In this document: one piece after another, positions 23,005 through 46,883 of the stretch
Position numbering within the stretch: position 1 is the stretch's first letter
Layout: each line of letters starts with the position of its first letter
Assembly: GCA_019637645.1 (NCBI GenBank)
Contig: JAHBVH010000047.1
Location: forward strand, 1-64,000
Direction: 5' to 3'
DNA length: 64,000 nt
Source of the DNA: Caldilineaceae bacterium
GTDB taxonomy: Bacteria; Chloroflexota; Anaerolineae; Caldilineales; Caldilineaceae
Position numbers and translations under genes: made by a program
Notes under the pieces: model-generated
Databases searched by the model: none
Told to the model about the DNA's origin: nothing
Seen by the model: the letters and a program-made list of their open reading frames with translations, nothing else

Positions 23005-23682
23005 CTAGCTTTCGGCCAATACGGTGGCAGCCCACAAGGTATCGGCTTCTGTCGATTCCAAGGTGGGCAGTTCATGTAAGCCCGTTAACCCAAAATGATG
23101 CAGAAAAGCTTCGGTTACGCCATAGAGAATGGGGCGCCCCACCCCTTCTAGACGACCACTTTCTTCGATCAATCCGCGTTGCACCAAGGAGCGCAAGATG
23201 GCAGAACTATCAACACCGCGTACTGCCTCGATTTGGGCCCGTGTAATCGGCTGGCGATACGCGATAATGGCTAGCGTCTCAAGGGCAGATGCACTGAGCT
23301 TGGTCGTTAAATCAAGATTGAGAAAAGTTTCAATGAGTGTAGCCAGTGTTGGGTTTGTCACTAACTGAAACTTGCCATGATATTCTTGAACACGCAGCCC
23401 ACGCCCTGTTTGCAAGTAATGGTAATCAAGCTCTTTCAGATACTGAATCACAGCCTCATTCGACATTTGCAGGGTTTTGGTCAACTGTCCAATTTCTACT
23501 GGACCTTCTGCCACAAATAACAAGGTTTCTAGTAAAGCTGGTATCCCCCAAGGTTCGGCGATGATGTCTCTAGCGGGCTCATTGGTTGCCGAGATGGGCG
23601 GTTGCAGCTCCGTTTCAGCAGCAGAAAGATCAACCTCATCACACACTACATTGGTCACTACAGTTTGCTCAATCATCATCAA
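23005..23682 (-). CDS. scpB: segregation and condensation protein B
   Basis: A 225-residue ScpB, the kleisin-associated winged-helix partner of SMC-ScpA in chromosome condensation and origin segregation. The tandem winged helices are recognisable, with the family signatures LETLLFVAEGPVEIGQL, ALETLAIIAYRQPITRAQIE and GRPILYGVTEAFLHHFGL. A nonconserved N-terminal stretch of about 45 residues precedes the domain. scpA and smc are not in the window. It sits in the same neighbourhood as the parS candidate at 24683, which would load the same machinery. Confidence 0.93.
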   Translation of the reverse strand: MMMIEQTVVTNVVCDEVDLSAAETELQPPISATNEPARDIIAEPWGIPALLETLLFVAEGPVEIGQLTKTLQMSNEAVIQYLKELDYHYLQTGRGLRVQEYHGKFQLVTNPTLATLIETFLNLDLTTKLSASALETLAIIAYRQPITRAQIEAVRGVDSSAILRSLVQRGLIEESGRLEGVGRPILYGVTEAFLHHFGLTGLHELPTLESTEADTLWAATVLAES

Positions 23683-24650: not shown

Positions 24651-24687
24651 AAAAAAAACACCGACGCTGGAAGTAGCGTCGGTGTTT
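24651..24687 (-). terminator. intrinsic terminator of the primary sigma factor gene
   Basis: AAACACCGACGCT at 24656-24668 pairs perfectly with AGCGTCGGTGTTT at 24675-24687 (6-nt loop). An eight-base A run at 24651-24658 becomes the T tract on the minus strand. It begins 23 nt after the sigma factor stop and overlaps the parS candidate by 5 bp. Confidence 0.92.
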
Positions 24688-24698
24688 CACGTGAAACC
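24683..24698. other. parS centromere site (ParB binding), 15 of 16 matches
   Basis: TGTTTCACGTGAAACC differs from the broad bacterial parS consensus TGTTTCACGTGAAACA only at the last base. It lies between the sigma factor stop (24711) and its terminator stem. parS sites normally cluster near the replication origin and nucleate ParB spreading and SMC loading. ParA/ParB genes are not in this window. Confidence 0.85.
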
Positions 24699-24710: not shown

Positions 24711-26033
24711 TTACAGGTAGTCGCGCAATTTACGACTGCGGCTAGGATGGCGCAAGCGGCTTAGTGCCTGCGCTTCAATTTGGCGAATGCGCTCGCGCGT
24801 CACGCCAAACTTCTTGCCTACCTCTTCGAGCGTATAACAGTAGCCATCGACCAAGCCAAAACGCAATTGCAGAATACGCACCTCACGTGGCGTAAGACTC
24901 TGGAAGATCTCATCAATGACTTCCCGTAAGATTTGCTGGCCAGCCGCCTCATTGGGTGCTGCAGCATCTTCATCTTCGATAAAATCGCCCAAATAACTAT
25001 CTTCTTCTTCGCCAACGGGCATTTCCAAGCTTAGAGGCCGTTGACTAACGCGCATAATATGCTCGACTTTGCGCGGAGAAACCCCAAGCTCTTCAGCAAT
25101 CTCCTCGGTAGTCGGGTCGCGTCCAAGCTCCTGCACCAACTGGCGACTGGTTCGCGTCAGACGATTAATCTGCTCATACATGTGAACAGGCACGCGAATA
25201 GTGCGGCCTTGATCGGCAATGGCCCGTGTCACAGCCTGACGAATCCACCAAGTAGCATAGGTGCTGAACTTATAGCCACGGCGATAATCAAATTTCTTCA
25301 CCGCACGGATCAACCCAATATTGCCCTCCTGGATCAGATCCAAGAAAGGCACACCGCGCCCGACATACTTCTTGGCAACGCTCACGACAAGACGGCTGTT
25401 AGCCTTGATCAAGTGCTCTTGGGCAGCCTGACCATCGCGAACAAACCATAATAATCGTTCGCGCTCTTCCCAATCTTCAACACCCTGCGCTAATTTACGA
25501 CGTGCATCGCGGCCTTTTTCCATACGCTTGGCCAACGAAACCTCTTCTTCCGCCGTCAATAAAGGGACGCGACCGATCTCTTTGAGGTAGAGGCTAATCG
25601 AATCATCAATTTCAATCTGGCTGAGATCAAAATTATCTTCCTCGATCATCTCTGCATCAAGATCGGTCATGTCCTCGGCTTCTTCCTCGCGGACTTGGCC
25701 AACTTCAATACCCTGCTCAAAAAGAGAGGCAAATATATCTTCCACCTGCTCCATGTTATTCTCAGCTTCAGGCACTAGACCCAAAACATCGTCATAGGAA
25801 ACAAAGCCTTGGGTTCGCCCTAAGGTTAGAAGTTGGCTCAGAATCTGCTCAGGCGTCAAAACTACGGGCGGTGCTAACGCAACATCGCCATTTTCACGCA
25901 GTTCTGGCTCCTGCTCATCAAGCTCATCAATTTCGTCTTCGAAATCGCTTTCATATCTCTGTTCGAAGCCGTTATCGAAGTCCATATCGAAATCGGCATC
26001 CATCGAGAAATCCAGCATTCTTTGCTTACCCAT
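24711..26033 (-). CDS. sigA: primary RNA polymerase sigma factor (RpoD/SigA)
   Basis: A 440-residue sigma-70 family housekeeping factor. A very acidic N-terminal extension (about 1-130) contains a region 1.1-like segment. It is followed by region 1.2 ([19 protein letters not shown]), region 2 ([50 protein letters not shown]), region 3 and region 4 ([21 protein letters not shown]). The ATG at 26033 is preferred. AAGGAG lies 14 nt upstream, and the alternative GTG at 26045 is only 2 nt from it. The gene ends with a strong terminator overlapping parS. Its 5' flank is AT-rich. Confidence 0.95.
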
Positions 26034-26350
26034 ATGTAAAACCACATCTCCTTACGCACGAATAACTCACTGATAATCTCTATAAAGAGGTGGAATCTAC
26101 GCGATGATTTTCCACATTTGATTAAATTTCGATATACTTCCGAACGCTACGTTTAACTATCTCTACTTTTGCGTTAAGCCTCAATACACGGTATAATTTA
26201 ATTTTACGTCAACACACTTCATTATTGCGTATATTCATTTAATTTACCGTATTGTGAGTCTCTTTTCTGCATCTTCGCGCACGATTCCAGAAACGGTATT
26301 TTTACTTTTGCAATGCGGTCGTAAAAGCACAGCTCACAAAAGTAATAAAT
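26034..26350. other. AT-rich flank upstream of the sigma factor gene
   Basis: About 300 bp of AT-rich DNA that should contain the sigma factor promoter. No single -35/-10 pair stands out and no gene or repeat was recognised. Confidence 0.4.
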
Positions 26351-36870: not shown

Positions 36871-37536
36871 CTACCATTTGCTCGCTTCTTCCAAATTGGT
36901 TAATCCTTCTTTTAAGGCATAGAGCGCAGCTTGCGTACGATTGGCCAGGTGCAACTTACTTAAAATATTGCTTACATGAGTGCGCACCGTTCGCTCACTG
37001 ATAAAGAGCGCGTTGGCGATATCTTGATTCGAATAACCCCGGGCGACAAAGACCAATACTTCAATCTCACGTTCCGTTAACGGTTCATCCGCGGGCGGTA
37101 GATTCGATGGGCGATTCAACTCACGGATCAATTTACGGGCAATGGCAGGGTGCAAAGATGATTCGCCGCGATAAACATCGTGGATCGCTTGTAGCAATTC
37201 TTTTGTCGAAGTTTCTTTTAATAAGTAGCCTAACGCACCGGCCTTAATCGCGGCAAAGACTTTCTCATCATCCGAATAGCTCGTCAAAACAAGAATCCGC
37301 GCATCGGGGTCCTCTTGTTTGATCTCTTCGATGGCTTCAATGCCTGTTTTGCGCGGCATCATCAGATCCATCAAAATCACATCAGGATTCAGCGATCGAG
37401 TTTTTAAGACAGTCTCTACACCATCAGCAGCTTCGTCGATTACATCTATGTCCTCTTCCGTTTCTAACAACGCACGGATACCACCCCGCACTACATGATG
37501 ATCATCCGCAATTAATACCCGGATCCGTTCATTCAT
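36871..37536 (-). CDS. NarL/LuxR-family response regulator
   Basis: A 221-residue regulator with an N-terminal receiver ([13 protein letters not shown], acceptor Asp in [25 protein letters not shown]). A C-terminal LuxR helix-turn-helix follows ([25 protein letters not shown]). The ATG at 37536 is chosen because GGAG lies 7 nt upstream. The GTG at 37551 has no proper spacing. It lies next to another orphan regulator and upstream of the DnaA-box-rich block, without a kinase gene. Confidence 0.93.
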
Positions 37537-37947
37537 ACCATTCTCCAACACGCTGAGTTAGTACGCTCTGGCTTATTTTGAACAATGTTTTCATCAGCCA
37601 TTGCTCCAATAACCGAAACACAAATCTCATTAGAGTGCTGTACCAGCCGTATAAAATAATTCCTACTTATATAGCAGTGCATCTAATCACTTGATAAGAT
37701 AAAGCCTAAGTATTATAACAGCATATAACTATTATTTCCTCCGATAAATTGCGGGTTTTTCTACAAGCCACTCCCCTGCAATGCTCGTAGCACTCTATTG
37801 CTTTCTACGGAACGTGCTCAAGCAGCTCAGTGAACTTTCGGGACAAAGCCAAGTTGACGAACCACCAACCCCACAATCCAAGCCTTACAGCAACCTATTG
37901 TAGAATAAACGAGCGCCAAAGGCCAGCTTACCAACCGATCAATAATA

Positions 37948-38029
37948 GGACTTACGCAGTTGGTGGGTACGACCAGAGACCTGACAGGTTTCCAAACTTG
38001 TCAGGTTTTGTCCAAGTGCGTAACTTCTA
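37948..38029. repeat. R1 dispersed palindromic repeat, full copy
   Basis: The ends are imperfect inverted repeats of 18 bp (TAGGACTTACGCAGTTGG facing CCAAGTGCGTAACTTCTA, 15 of 18 paired). The inner core is ACCTGACAGGTTTCCAAACT and TGTCAGGT. There is no coding capacity. It resembles a MITE or REP-type element. Confidence 0.8.
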
Positions 38030-38092
38030 AATAAGTTCGGTATGTACCAATAATCGCGTTAATTCGGTATTTTTATGGAGGGAATATGCTGG

Positions 38093-38450
38093 CTAAGTTA
38101 TCCCCAATTTCAGAAATTTCGTTGTTGAAACTGGGGATAACTTAGCTATGCTGAGGATAACTTCTTTTCCCAGGTTATCCCCGCTTATCCCCAGTCTAGT
38201 ATTATGGAAAAGCTCGTAATACTAGATCTAGCGAAGGGCAAGCGGCCGCGAAAAAGTTTCCCACATCTTTCCCAATTTATTCCCAAAGTTATTCATGCAT
38301 TATCCCAAGTTTTCCCAAATCCACGCGACTAGATAGGGTACTATTCGGGCATGCGCTACCAATATCTAGGGGGTTATGTTATTTCGGCGAAGAGTTATCC
38401 CCATTTCCCCAGCCCCTATGACCAATACGATAAACTTATTATAATAATGA
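38093..38450. other. origin-like cluster of DnaA-box-type sequences
   Basis: TTATCCCCA or one-base variants occur at 38098-38106 (+), 38132-38140 (-), 38152-38160 (-, TGAGGATAA), 38175-38183 (+), 38185-38193 (+) and 38395-38403 (+). The first two sit in a perfect 14-bp inverted repeat (38093-38106 with 38132-38145). CTAGTATTA at 38196-38204 faces 38217-38225. An AT-rich stretch follows at 38427-38450. This composition is that of an oriC or a DnaA-regulated region. The boxes differ from TTATCCACA at one position. dnaA itself is not in the window. Confidence 0.5.
38257..38317 (+). repeat. 11-bp phased TTTCCCA array
   Basis: TTTCCCA at 38257 and 38268, ATTCCCA at 38279, a degenerate unit at 38290, TATCCCA at 38301 and TTTCCCA at 38311. 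The spacing is close to one helical turn, so all units face the same side of the DNA. It lies inside the origin-like block. Confidence 0.6.
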
Positions 38451-38510
38451 CACGGGAAGCTACTGAAAGATGCTTTGCGAATAACGGGAGCATTTCACTA
38501 CACGGCAAGC

Positions 38511-39116
38511 CTAGGGACGCCGCATCTGTTTCTGTTCATATACCATCCCGTGTGGCAAGAATGAGGGAAGCGGGTTTTCTTGGTTTTCGGAAGGAAAAAG
38601 GAGCTTGGCTGGGTTTAGGTAGGGTAGCGGATCGACAAAACCGCCCCAACCGTCAAAGCGATTAAAGGGCTTGATCCGAATACCAAAGTGAAGATAGGTC
38701 GAGGAAGGTTGGGCGCGTGAAGCTAGTGTGATTGGTTCGTCCATCAGGGCCAGCTGGGCACCACGCGCAACCGCTTGTCCTGCATCTACCAAAATAGTAT
38801 CGATATGGGCGTAGAATGACTCTCCCCAGCGGTGTTCTACTTTGAGGTAACGGCCTAGGCCACCCTGTTCCTCGCCAATTTCGGTCACTCGTCCGGCATC
38901 GACGGCAAGCACATAGGTTCCGGGGATAATGAGAAAATCAATCCCATTGTGGCCCTTGAGCGGAACACCATTATAGGAGAATTGACCGTAATGATCACTC
39001 TGTTCACCCCAGAAGTGGACTGCCATACAATCACCAGCGAGGGGCAAGCTGAGGTAAATTCCTTCGGGTTCGTACGCGCCATCTTCGAGGGGACGCACTA
39101 AAAACTTATAACTCAT
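38511..39116 (-). CDS. M23-like peptidase domain protein without export signal
   Basis: A 201-residue protein with a LytM/M23 fold. Zinc ligands H56 and D60 (GHNGID) and H143 are present, as is H104 (YAHID). The first histidine of the usual HxH motif is replaced by Y141 (STYLHFGIR), which may weaken or change catalysis. No signal peptide or membrane helix is seen, so a cytoplasmic or unconventional location is possible. The C-terminal 50 residues are unusual. It lies alone beside the origin-like block. Confidence 0.8.
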   Translation of the reverse strand: MSYKFLVRPLEDGAYEPEGIYLSLPLAGDCMAVHFWGEQSDHYGQFSYNGVPLKGHNGIDFLIIPGTYVLAVDAGRVTEIGEEQGGLGRYLKVEHRWGESFYAHIDTILVDAGQAVARGAQLALMDEPITLASRAQPSSTYLHFGIRIKPFNRFDGWGGFVDPLPYLNPAKLLFPSENQENPLPSFLPHGMVYEQKQMRRP

Positions 39117-39344
39117 GTGGATAGCTTACCCCTAGATGTATGCTCCTGCTTGTTTGTGGTACAACTGGTGGCATACGACTTCTAAATTCGACAAGAATTA
39201 GGTTGACGATTATACTCCTATATTATACTATACTACACTCATTCGGGCATTTACCCTTATTCTACGCTGGGTAGGGATAAATGGGAATGAGGGGATTTGA
39301 TCCATTGCGTGGCTGCGTAAGGCGCCAAATAGGGAGTGAGTTGT

Positions 39345-39692
39345 ATGCCGATCTACGAGTTTGTCTGCCGGAATTGTCACCATGAATTTGAACAAATTTT
39401 GTCTTTTTCTGCAACATCAATGCCCAATTGCCCCAACTGTAGTAGTAGTGAAGTAGAACGCCGTGTGGGGCGCCCCGCGATTCATTTCAAAGGGAGTGGC
39501 TGGTATATTACGGATAGCAAGGCAAGCAAAGATTCGGCCAACGCTACAACGAAGACAACCGAGAAAACGACAGACAAAGCATCAGACAAAGCATCATCAG
39601 ATTCTTCTACGGCTACGCCTGCTAGTGAAACCAAAAGTGAGAGCAAAGGCGAGACAAAGGAGAAGTCCACTTCGGTTGAAAGTGCAAGCTAA
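39345..39692 (+). CDS. FmdB-family zinc ribbon protein
   Basis: A 115-residue protein beginning MPIYEFVCRNCHHEFE, the hallmark of the FmdB/CxxC_CxxC_SSSS regulatory zinc-ribbon family. A second cysteine pair follows (CPNC). The last 60 residues are a Lys/Ser/Thr/Glu-rich, probably disordered tail. The function is not established, although FmdB was linked to formamidase regulation. The ATG at 39345 with GGAG upstream is chosen over the GTG at 39336. Confidence 0.88.
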   Translation: MPIYEFVCRNCHHEFEQILSFSATSMPNCPNCSSSEVERRVGRPAIHFKGSGWYITDSKASKDSANATTKTTEKTTDKASDKASSDSSTATPASETKSESKGETKEKSTSVESAS

Positions 39693-46365: not shown

Positions 46366-46883
46366 TCAAGACGGCCATGCCCAAGGTAAGGTATTCTGAT
46401 AGATCCACGCCGTCAAATGAAACCATTGTAGCATAAGCAAGGGAATAGTTCCGGCTTGTAAGTCGCTTAGATCCATAAATTGGCGCGCCAACAGCATGAC
46501 CAGCCAAAGGGTGGTTGGCATGGTCGCCAGGCTAAAGAGATCCCCATCGCGCTGACCGCCATAGTCTGGATTCCACATCCTGATAAAAAGTAAGTAACTG
46601 CGGCAAGGTTTGTGGATAAAACTGTGGATAACTCTGGGGATAAGTGGACTGGATCTGGGGATAAAATGCACCGCTTGCGCTGCCAAACCGACCAGTCGGC
46701 ATAGAGCAGAATACCAGCGGCAGCAAAGCGATAGTTTTCCAATATATAATAATGAAGGGCGAAGAACAATAAGATTACACCATGCAACGTGGCAACCAGC
46801 GGATGTTGTCTTGCTCTACATCTGCGGTGGTGTACAGGCGGCACAGTACGCTTGGGATGGGTTGGTTGTGGTGGTAAAGTCAT
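46366..46883 (-). pseudogene. frameshifted small membrane protein gene
   Basis: Two overlapping minus-strand frames each look like half of one membrane protein. The frame from 46883 gives a helix near [18 protein letters not shown] and [15 protein letters not shown] different frame ending at 46366 gives [18 protein letters not shown] and [14 protein letters not shown]. The switch falls at the GTGGATAA repeats near 46611-46664. A frameshift caused by repeat growth is the simplest reading. A sequencing error or two unrelated frames are alternatives. Confidence 0.4.
46611..46664 (-). repeat. array of four DnaA-box-like repeats
   Basis: On the minus strand TTATCCACA occurs twice (46611-46619 and 46623-46631) and TTATCCCCA twice (46635-46643 and 46656-46664). 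The first three are spaced exactly 12 bp. Two are perfect matches to the E. coli DnaA box. The array sits at the frameshift of the broken membrane protein gene. Confidence 0.7.

Follow-up and report, generated by a model that had tools for sequence, protein, structure and literature searches.

The block at positions 38092-38451 of the 64-kb stretch of DNA analysed here (the window) is, with a probability of about 0.9, the chromosomal oriC of an uncultured bacterium that belongs to the Caldilineales (Chloroflexota) or is closely related to them. An origin of a known kind, it combines a dense cluster of DnaA-box-type sites with a conserved, BUS-like core, and in the three relatives checked it is detached from dnaA. 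For Caldilineales-type bacteria, for which our literature search found no described oriC, this provides a concrete origin locus and a sequence profile that finds it.

The block lies within a 959-bp intergenic region (37552-38510), flanked according to the ORF list and Pfam by a LuxR-type response-regulator gene on the left (36871-37551, minus strand) and an M23 peptidase gene on the right (38511-39116, minus strand; PF01551). This length, which agrees with the roughly 960 bp proposed by an earlier sequence-only reading, holds if a 104-aa ORF at 38351-38665 is spurious. That ORF is the only one of at least 100 aa that starts inside the region, and was rejected as a gene because it belongs to no Pfam family, has no homologue (a search of about 5.8 billion proteins gave nothing at E <= 0.001) and overlaps one box and the core. 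Scanning the window for Rfam families and for tRNAs gave no matches. Pfam likewise found no DnaA among 54 window translations, picked as likely genes from an ORF list with 107 entries of at least 100 aa, in keeping with the absence of dnaA reported before.

Eight sites with at most one mismatch to TTATCCCCA fall within 306 bp (38098-38403), forming a putative DnaA-box cluster. Four are exact copies (38098, 38185 and 38395 on the plus strand, 38132 on the minus strand) and four carry one mismatch (38152 on the minus strand; 38175, 38277 and 38300 on the plus strand); the density described earlier is thus real, while the count of six in 311 bp was too low. The whole window holds 38 such sites where shuffles predict 14.1, and none of 20,000 random placements of these 38 put eight within 311 bp; the cluster exceeds chance, as is looked for in an oriC. 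Its left end is an inverted repeat (38092-38146) whose 21-bp arms (38092-38112 and 38126-38146) match at 95%, with 15 bp perfect, and each carry one DnaA box (38098-38106, plus; 38132-38140, minus); the repeat was recognized previously, at a perfect 14 bp that understated its length. A head-to-tail box pair follows on the plus strand (38175-38193), comprising TTATCCCCG at 38175-38183 and TTATCCCCA at 38185-38193, and then a second inverted repeat (38195-38226) in which TCTAGTATTA (38195-38204) and TAATACTAGA (38217-38226) pair perfectly over 10 bp around a 12-bp loop. Weak boxes of the TTCCC/TATCCC type are spaced at about 11 bp along the plus strand (38258-38320), with units at 38258, 38269, 38280, 38290-91 (degenerate), 38301-02 and 38312. 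The last feature is a probable unwinding element, an AT-rich stretch (38416-38451, plus strand) that begins with a trio-like CTA and whose 75% AT is equalled or exceeded by 0.3% of the window's 36-mers. The second repeat, the 11-bp phased array and the AT-rich stretch were all correctly picked out by the sequence-only reading, and an intergenic AT-rich element beside boxes is a further feature sought in an oriC.

An equal box density in many other intergenic regions, which would have told against the oriC reading, was not seen, save for one smaller group of four boxes 8.2 kb from oriC. These boxes, two of TTATCCCCA and two of TTATCCACA, point in the same direction on the minus strand within 54 bp (46611-46664), inside an ORF (46467-46883) that has no Pfam family and a flat codon-position GC. 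The profile scan described below found no core beside this group, which is possibly a DnaA titration or reactivation site.

The sequence-only reading had the AT-rich stretch but lacked the larger core to which it belongs (38395-38451). At the M23-side end of the cluster, two putative head-to-tail boxes on the plus strand (38395-38411), namely TTATCCCCA (38395-38403) and a weak ATTTCCCCA (38403-38411), are followed by a 4-bp spacer read from the sequence as GCCC (38412-38415, plus strand) and then by the AT-rich stretch with its CTA start. The trinucleotide CTA corresponds to 3'-GAT-5' on the other strand. Many relatives in the order display the same succession of boxes, 4-bp spacer, CTACTAAGACATACTA-like sequence and AT-rich run. 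Under the BUS rule given in PMC8287927, three or more trios follow one another and a DnaA box, mostly a tandem one, stands no more than 16 bp from them. Tandem boxes are present (38395-38403 and 38403-38411), but the window has one formal DnaA-trio where the rule needs three, so its core is BUS-like and no formal BUS.

The M23 gene is the constant neighbour of this locus. The window is assigned to what we take to be the order Caldilineales, or to its close kin, via the M23 gene alone: the protein recovers two MAGs of the Caldilineaceae (51-52% identity) and a distant locus (30%), and reaches 59% with its best match in the order of G001. Matches were found in 45 of the 46 order genomes, many of them to longer M23 proteins, and the M23 loci of 30 genomes, plus G020 and G023, were examined. 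Beyond the M23 gene lies an FmdB-type zinc-ribbon gene (39336-39692, plus strand; PF09723), and the same pair occurs in L001, the single relative checked for it. Across the 30 relatives' loci and the window, strict boxes (TTATCC[AC]CA) number 68 in the 20.6 kb 3' of the M23 gene (700 bp per locus, less at contig ends) vs 3 in 84 kb elsewhere, and two of those three come from the opposite flank of the M23 gene in L013. At least one strict box stands 3' of the gene in 24/30 relatives and at least two in 18/30; the six loci without one include L013 and L023, whose contigs hold only 104 and 258 bp there. By eye, some relatives also carry other sequences in these regions. A dyad of TTGTGTCGAACATATATTCGACACAA, unlike the window's dyad, sits between boxes in G023 (C1 2403500-2403525), TTCG-type sequences occur in some others, and a motif of the CTATATCTAG / CCACATATAGT type recurs upstream of the core. 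All of these may be sites of further proteins.

The core itself recurs at these loci. A core seed is present in 23 of 30 regions, comprising G020, G023 and 28 of the 30 M23 loci (L013 and L023 were omitted, their contigs ending 104 and 258 bp past the M23 gene). Two strict regular expressions recovered the core in only 10/31 and 3/31 regions and were abandoned, and a position profile was therefore used. Built from 74 positions of the 23 regions without the window, the profile matches the window at 38382 with 42.2 bits, the next best score in the 64 kb being -0.3 bits; the seed was composed with the window's core already seen beside those of the relatives, and it is the profile alone that is blind to the window. 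The seed is missing from seven regions (L017, L019, L022, L030, L032, L036 and L039). Of these, L022 and L039 have a core variant by eye, the L039 place scoring 62.0 in the profile scan (there L045), and the genome of L030 has an exact core about 1.2 kb from its M23 gene. When a profile made without G020 and G023 was run over 140 stretches of three relatives' genomes (2.8 Mb sampled of about 16.4 Mb), each gave one strong place, at 62.0 bits in G022, 60.8 in G023 and 57.3 in G020, with 9.8 bits as the next best; G022 was never in the profile, and near kin of all three were.

Of 396 genomes drawn from the class, 12 contain the exact core string TATCCCCAGNNCCTACTA and 3 its reversed control; five of the 12 belong to the order and seven are absent from its set of 46. 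A DnaA box with at most one mismatch occupies the 9 bp immediately 5' of the core in 10 of these 12 genomes, and the search pattern did not require an upstream box. One match, L195, is probably a chance occurrence inside a gene. At least three trios are found in 13 of 23 order relatives, the other 10 having fewer, and in four of the seven class matches outside the order (L185 with 5, L187 with 4, L194 with 3 and L196 with 8); L186, L188 and L195 have two consecutive trios each, and the class counts include two trios built into the search pattern. The most telling link for the oriC reading is L186 (genome G206), where the core follows, at 418 bp on the 3' side, a 312-aa ORF that contains the DnaA ATPase domain (matched from profile position 25) and the DnaA box-binding domain. 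The core string there is TATCCCCAGCCCCTACTA, and before it stands TCATCCACA, which differs from TTATCCACA at one base.

The relatives G020, G022 and G023 served for tests across whole genomes. In G022 (contig of 5.40 Mb), four of the 37 strict boxes listed lie within 198 bp at the cluster, and no other dense group is found among those 37. In G023 (5.06 Mb), 10 of 62 strict boxes lie within 321 bp at the cluster, with at most a pair elsewhere, at 4.396 Mb. The G020 genome (5.95 Mb) has only two of its 48 strict boxes at the cluster place, 66 bp apart, and this pair is in kind no denser than one 0.4 kb apart near dnaA. Overall, strict boxes exceed the reversed control in G023 (62 vs 38) and come close to it in G022 (37 vs 32) and G020 (48 vs 37). 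The origin first suggested from the window's letters is borne out by boxes that recur next to a single gene within the order, by the absence of any second dense group from the near-complete G022 and G023, and by an unwinding-type core that in one class relative is close to dnaA.

A location beside dnaA is common for oriC and is not required. Neither the window nor the three relatives place the cluster next to dnaA, which lies 112-232 kb away and points away from the cluster in 3/3, whereas the L186 core is near dnaA. At the dnaA loci themselves, two DnaA-box-type sites in G022 (L042 3124-3173) and three in G020 (L044 2799-3190) stand no farther than about 1.7 kb from the DnaA domain, and are perhaps autoregulatory; the G023 locus (L043) has no such sites except one TTATCCACG. 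In the same three genomes rpoB lies 135-263 kb from the cluster and six 16S genes lie within 0.7 Mb of it, four directed away and two towards; rpoB and the ribosomal L2 gene point towards the cluster in 3/3.

Sites of the parS type are commonly located near the origin (PMC7333895). The window has a parS-like site at 24683-24698 on the plus strand (TGTTTCACGTGAAACC, one mismatch to TGTTTCACGTGAAACA), 13.4 kb from the cluster as had been stated, so that a nearby parS, also common for an oriC, is present. It lies just 3' of a sigma-70 gene (24711-26045, minus strand) and about 1 kb from a ScpB gene (23005-23682). Where about 0.06 sites with at most one mismatch are expected per genome by calculation, the relatives have them at 243 kb from the cluster in G023 (an exact copy), at 336 kb and 348 kb in G022, and at 492 kb in G020; at two mismatches there is no excess, with 2, 2 and 1 places vs 0, 1 and 2 in a reversed control, which slightly lowers the odds of oriC. 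The only ParB_N match of each genome (G022 C1 2.81 Mb, G020 C1 1.90 Mb, G023 C1 4.36 Mb) is 2.0-2.8 Mb from the cluster and far from the parS-like sites, and that of G022 sits between stretches of opposite skew. A search for dif by the XerCD pattern with one mismatch was uninformative, returning 7, 3 and 3 matches in G020, G022 and G023 vs 9, 8 and 6 in the reversed control, with no place common to the three.

The minimum of cumulative GC skew is the usual mark of an oriC, again without being a requirement. Here the expectation of the sequence-only reading failed: in G020 and G022 the minimum is far away, and it is the cumulative maximum that the cluster adjoins, at a distance of no more than about 0.3 Mb. 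Among 20-kb stretches of G022, sampled more densely near the cluster as in G020, 25/30 to the left of the cluster are positive and 25/30 to the right negative; the G020 counts are 20/24 and 12/16. The maximum can be placed only to about 0.3 Mb because the sign change is diffuse, the skew being weak between about -160 and +300 kb in G022 and between -290 and +30 kb in G020, and dnaA is in or near this weak-skew zone in both. The G020 minimum, at about +1.2 to +1.5 Mb from the cluster, is not opposite it. Skew at four-fold sites is -0.27 (G022) and -0.22 (G020) in genes pointing away from the cluster, and +0.07 and +0.05 in genes pointing towards it. There is hardly any skew in G023, whose cumulative low within the 400 kb around the cluster is about 80 kb to its left. 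The window, too short for this test, has its lowest cumulative skew at 42-44 kb; its left-side genes are less C-rich when pointing away (-0.09) than when pointing towards the cluster (-0.21) and its right side shows no difference, so that it leans weakly, and on the left side only, to normal polarity. Gene-strand bias was discarded as origin evidence, since 43-49% of coding length points away per distance band, which is too weak.

These skews are what a replication terminus would predict, with the true origin at the GC-skew minimum near parB. Such a terminus would account for the position of the cluster near the maximum in G020 and G022, for the direction of rpoB and L2, and for a parB near a skew sign change in G022. 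We nevertheless consider it quite unlikely: the parS-like sites (at most one mismatch), dnaA, rpoB and the 16S genes are all on the cluster's side, dnaA points away from the cluster in all three genomes, the core stands 3' of dnaA in L186, and the strict boxes listed for G022 include no group around 2.8 Mb. Because boxes, core, parS, dnaA, rpoB and 16S positions agree, it is much likelier that part of the order has inverted skew and gene polarity than that the origin is at the other end. We put at about even odds the fuller statement for G020 and G022, in which forks leave an origin near the skew maximum, the leading strand is C- and A-rich, rpoB and the L2 operon are transcribed head-on, and polarity has been inverted or swapped. 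This strand-polarity puzzle is the main unexplained point in the two genomes.

The numerous boxes without dnaA nearby could also belong to a regulatory site bound by DnaA, either of the datA or DARS kind (names for DnaA-binding regulatory sites) or a DnaA-controlled promoter, with oriC elsewhere, and the group 8.2 kb away shows that core-less groups exist. A titration site, however, would presumably need none of the fixed order of boxes, spacer, CTA and AT-rich run, and a second strong core is absent from the window and from the 2.8 Mb of sequence sampled in three relatives; this is a slightly more doubtful account than that of a terminus. That the boxes occupy a long intergenic block would even suit an origin brought in by an integrated plasmid or another mobile element, but such an element would hardly put them at the same place beside the M23 gene in 24/30 relatives, and the Pfam matches of the scanned neighbours, among which several ORFs are family-less, include no Rep, integrase or transposase. 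We regard this last account as barely credible.

For the oriC reading, what is observed is the boxes, their arrangement, their conservation beside the M23 gene, the absence of another dense group from two near-complete relatives and the core near dnaA in a class relative; DnaA binding, unwinding, initiation and a feeder role for the remaining boxes are inferred. DnaA, encoded elsewhere, would bind the cluster (38098-38403). From the tandem boxes (38395-38411) it would be guided, by analogy with B. subtilis, across GCCC (38412-38415) onto one strand of the AT-rich stretch (38416-38451), which would open and there receive the helicase. Looping or cooperative assembly would probably let the inverted pair of boxes at the far end, and the weak phased ones, feed DnaA to this opening site.

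In G020 and G022, the box-and-core evidence and GC skew thus name opposite chromosome ends. If the inverted polarity is real, skew-based origin finders would put the origin of these genomes at the terminus, and growth-rate estimates from metagenome coverage that use a skew-placed origin would be expected to mislead.

Origins detached from dnaA are also known from cyanobacteria, with other neighbours and another box type than in the window. Haloarchaeal origins use archaeal initiators, whereas the boxes here are of DnaA type. An inverse skew extremum like that of G020 and G022 is described for haloarchaeal origins in PMC2841640. For bacteria, our literature search found no chromosome described as wholly skew-inverted, and the skew papers PMC4916380 and PMC6220195 concern local inversions. 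Within the same phylum, the Ktedonobacteria are reported in PMC13289182 to have a major V of cumulative skew that coincides with the predicted ori, and dnaA/dnaN and parA/parB in one locus, whereas parB in G020, G022 and G023 is remote from the parS-like sites. The E. coli oriC also lies away from dnaA (PMC8287927), with different neighbours and box type. In L186 the core string follows a box as in the window, with dnaA as its neighbour there and the M23 gene here. The closest parallel is B. subtilis, where two boxes guide DnaA onto trios (3'-GAT-5') that are stretched to open the origin, and basal unwinding elements have been predicted in 1755 of 2070 origins (PMC8287927, PMC6669920). The window differs from the B. 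subtilis BUS in its single formal trio, in its predominantly TTATCCCCA box and in having no dnaA within it; what the two have in common is a pair of head-to-tail boxes, about 4 bp of spacer, and a CTA that leads into an AT-rich stretch.
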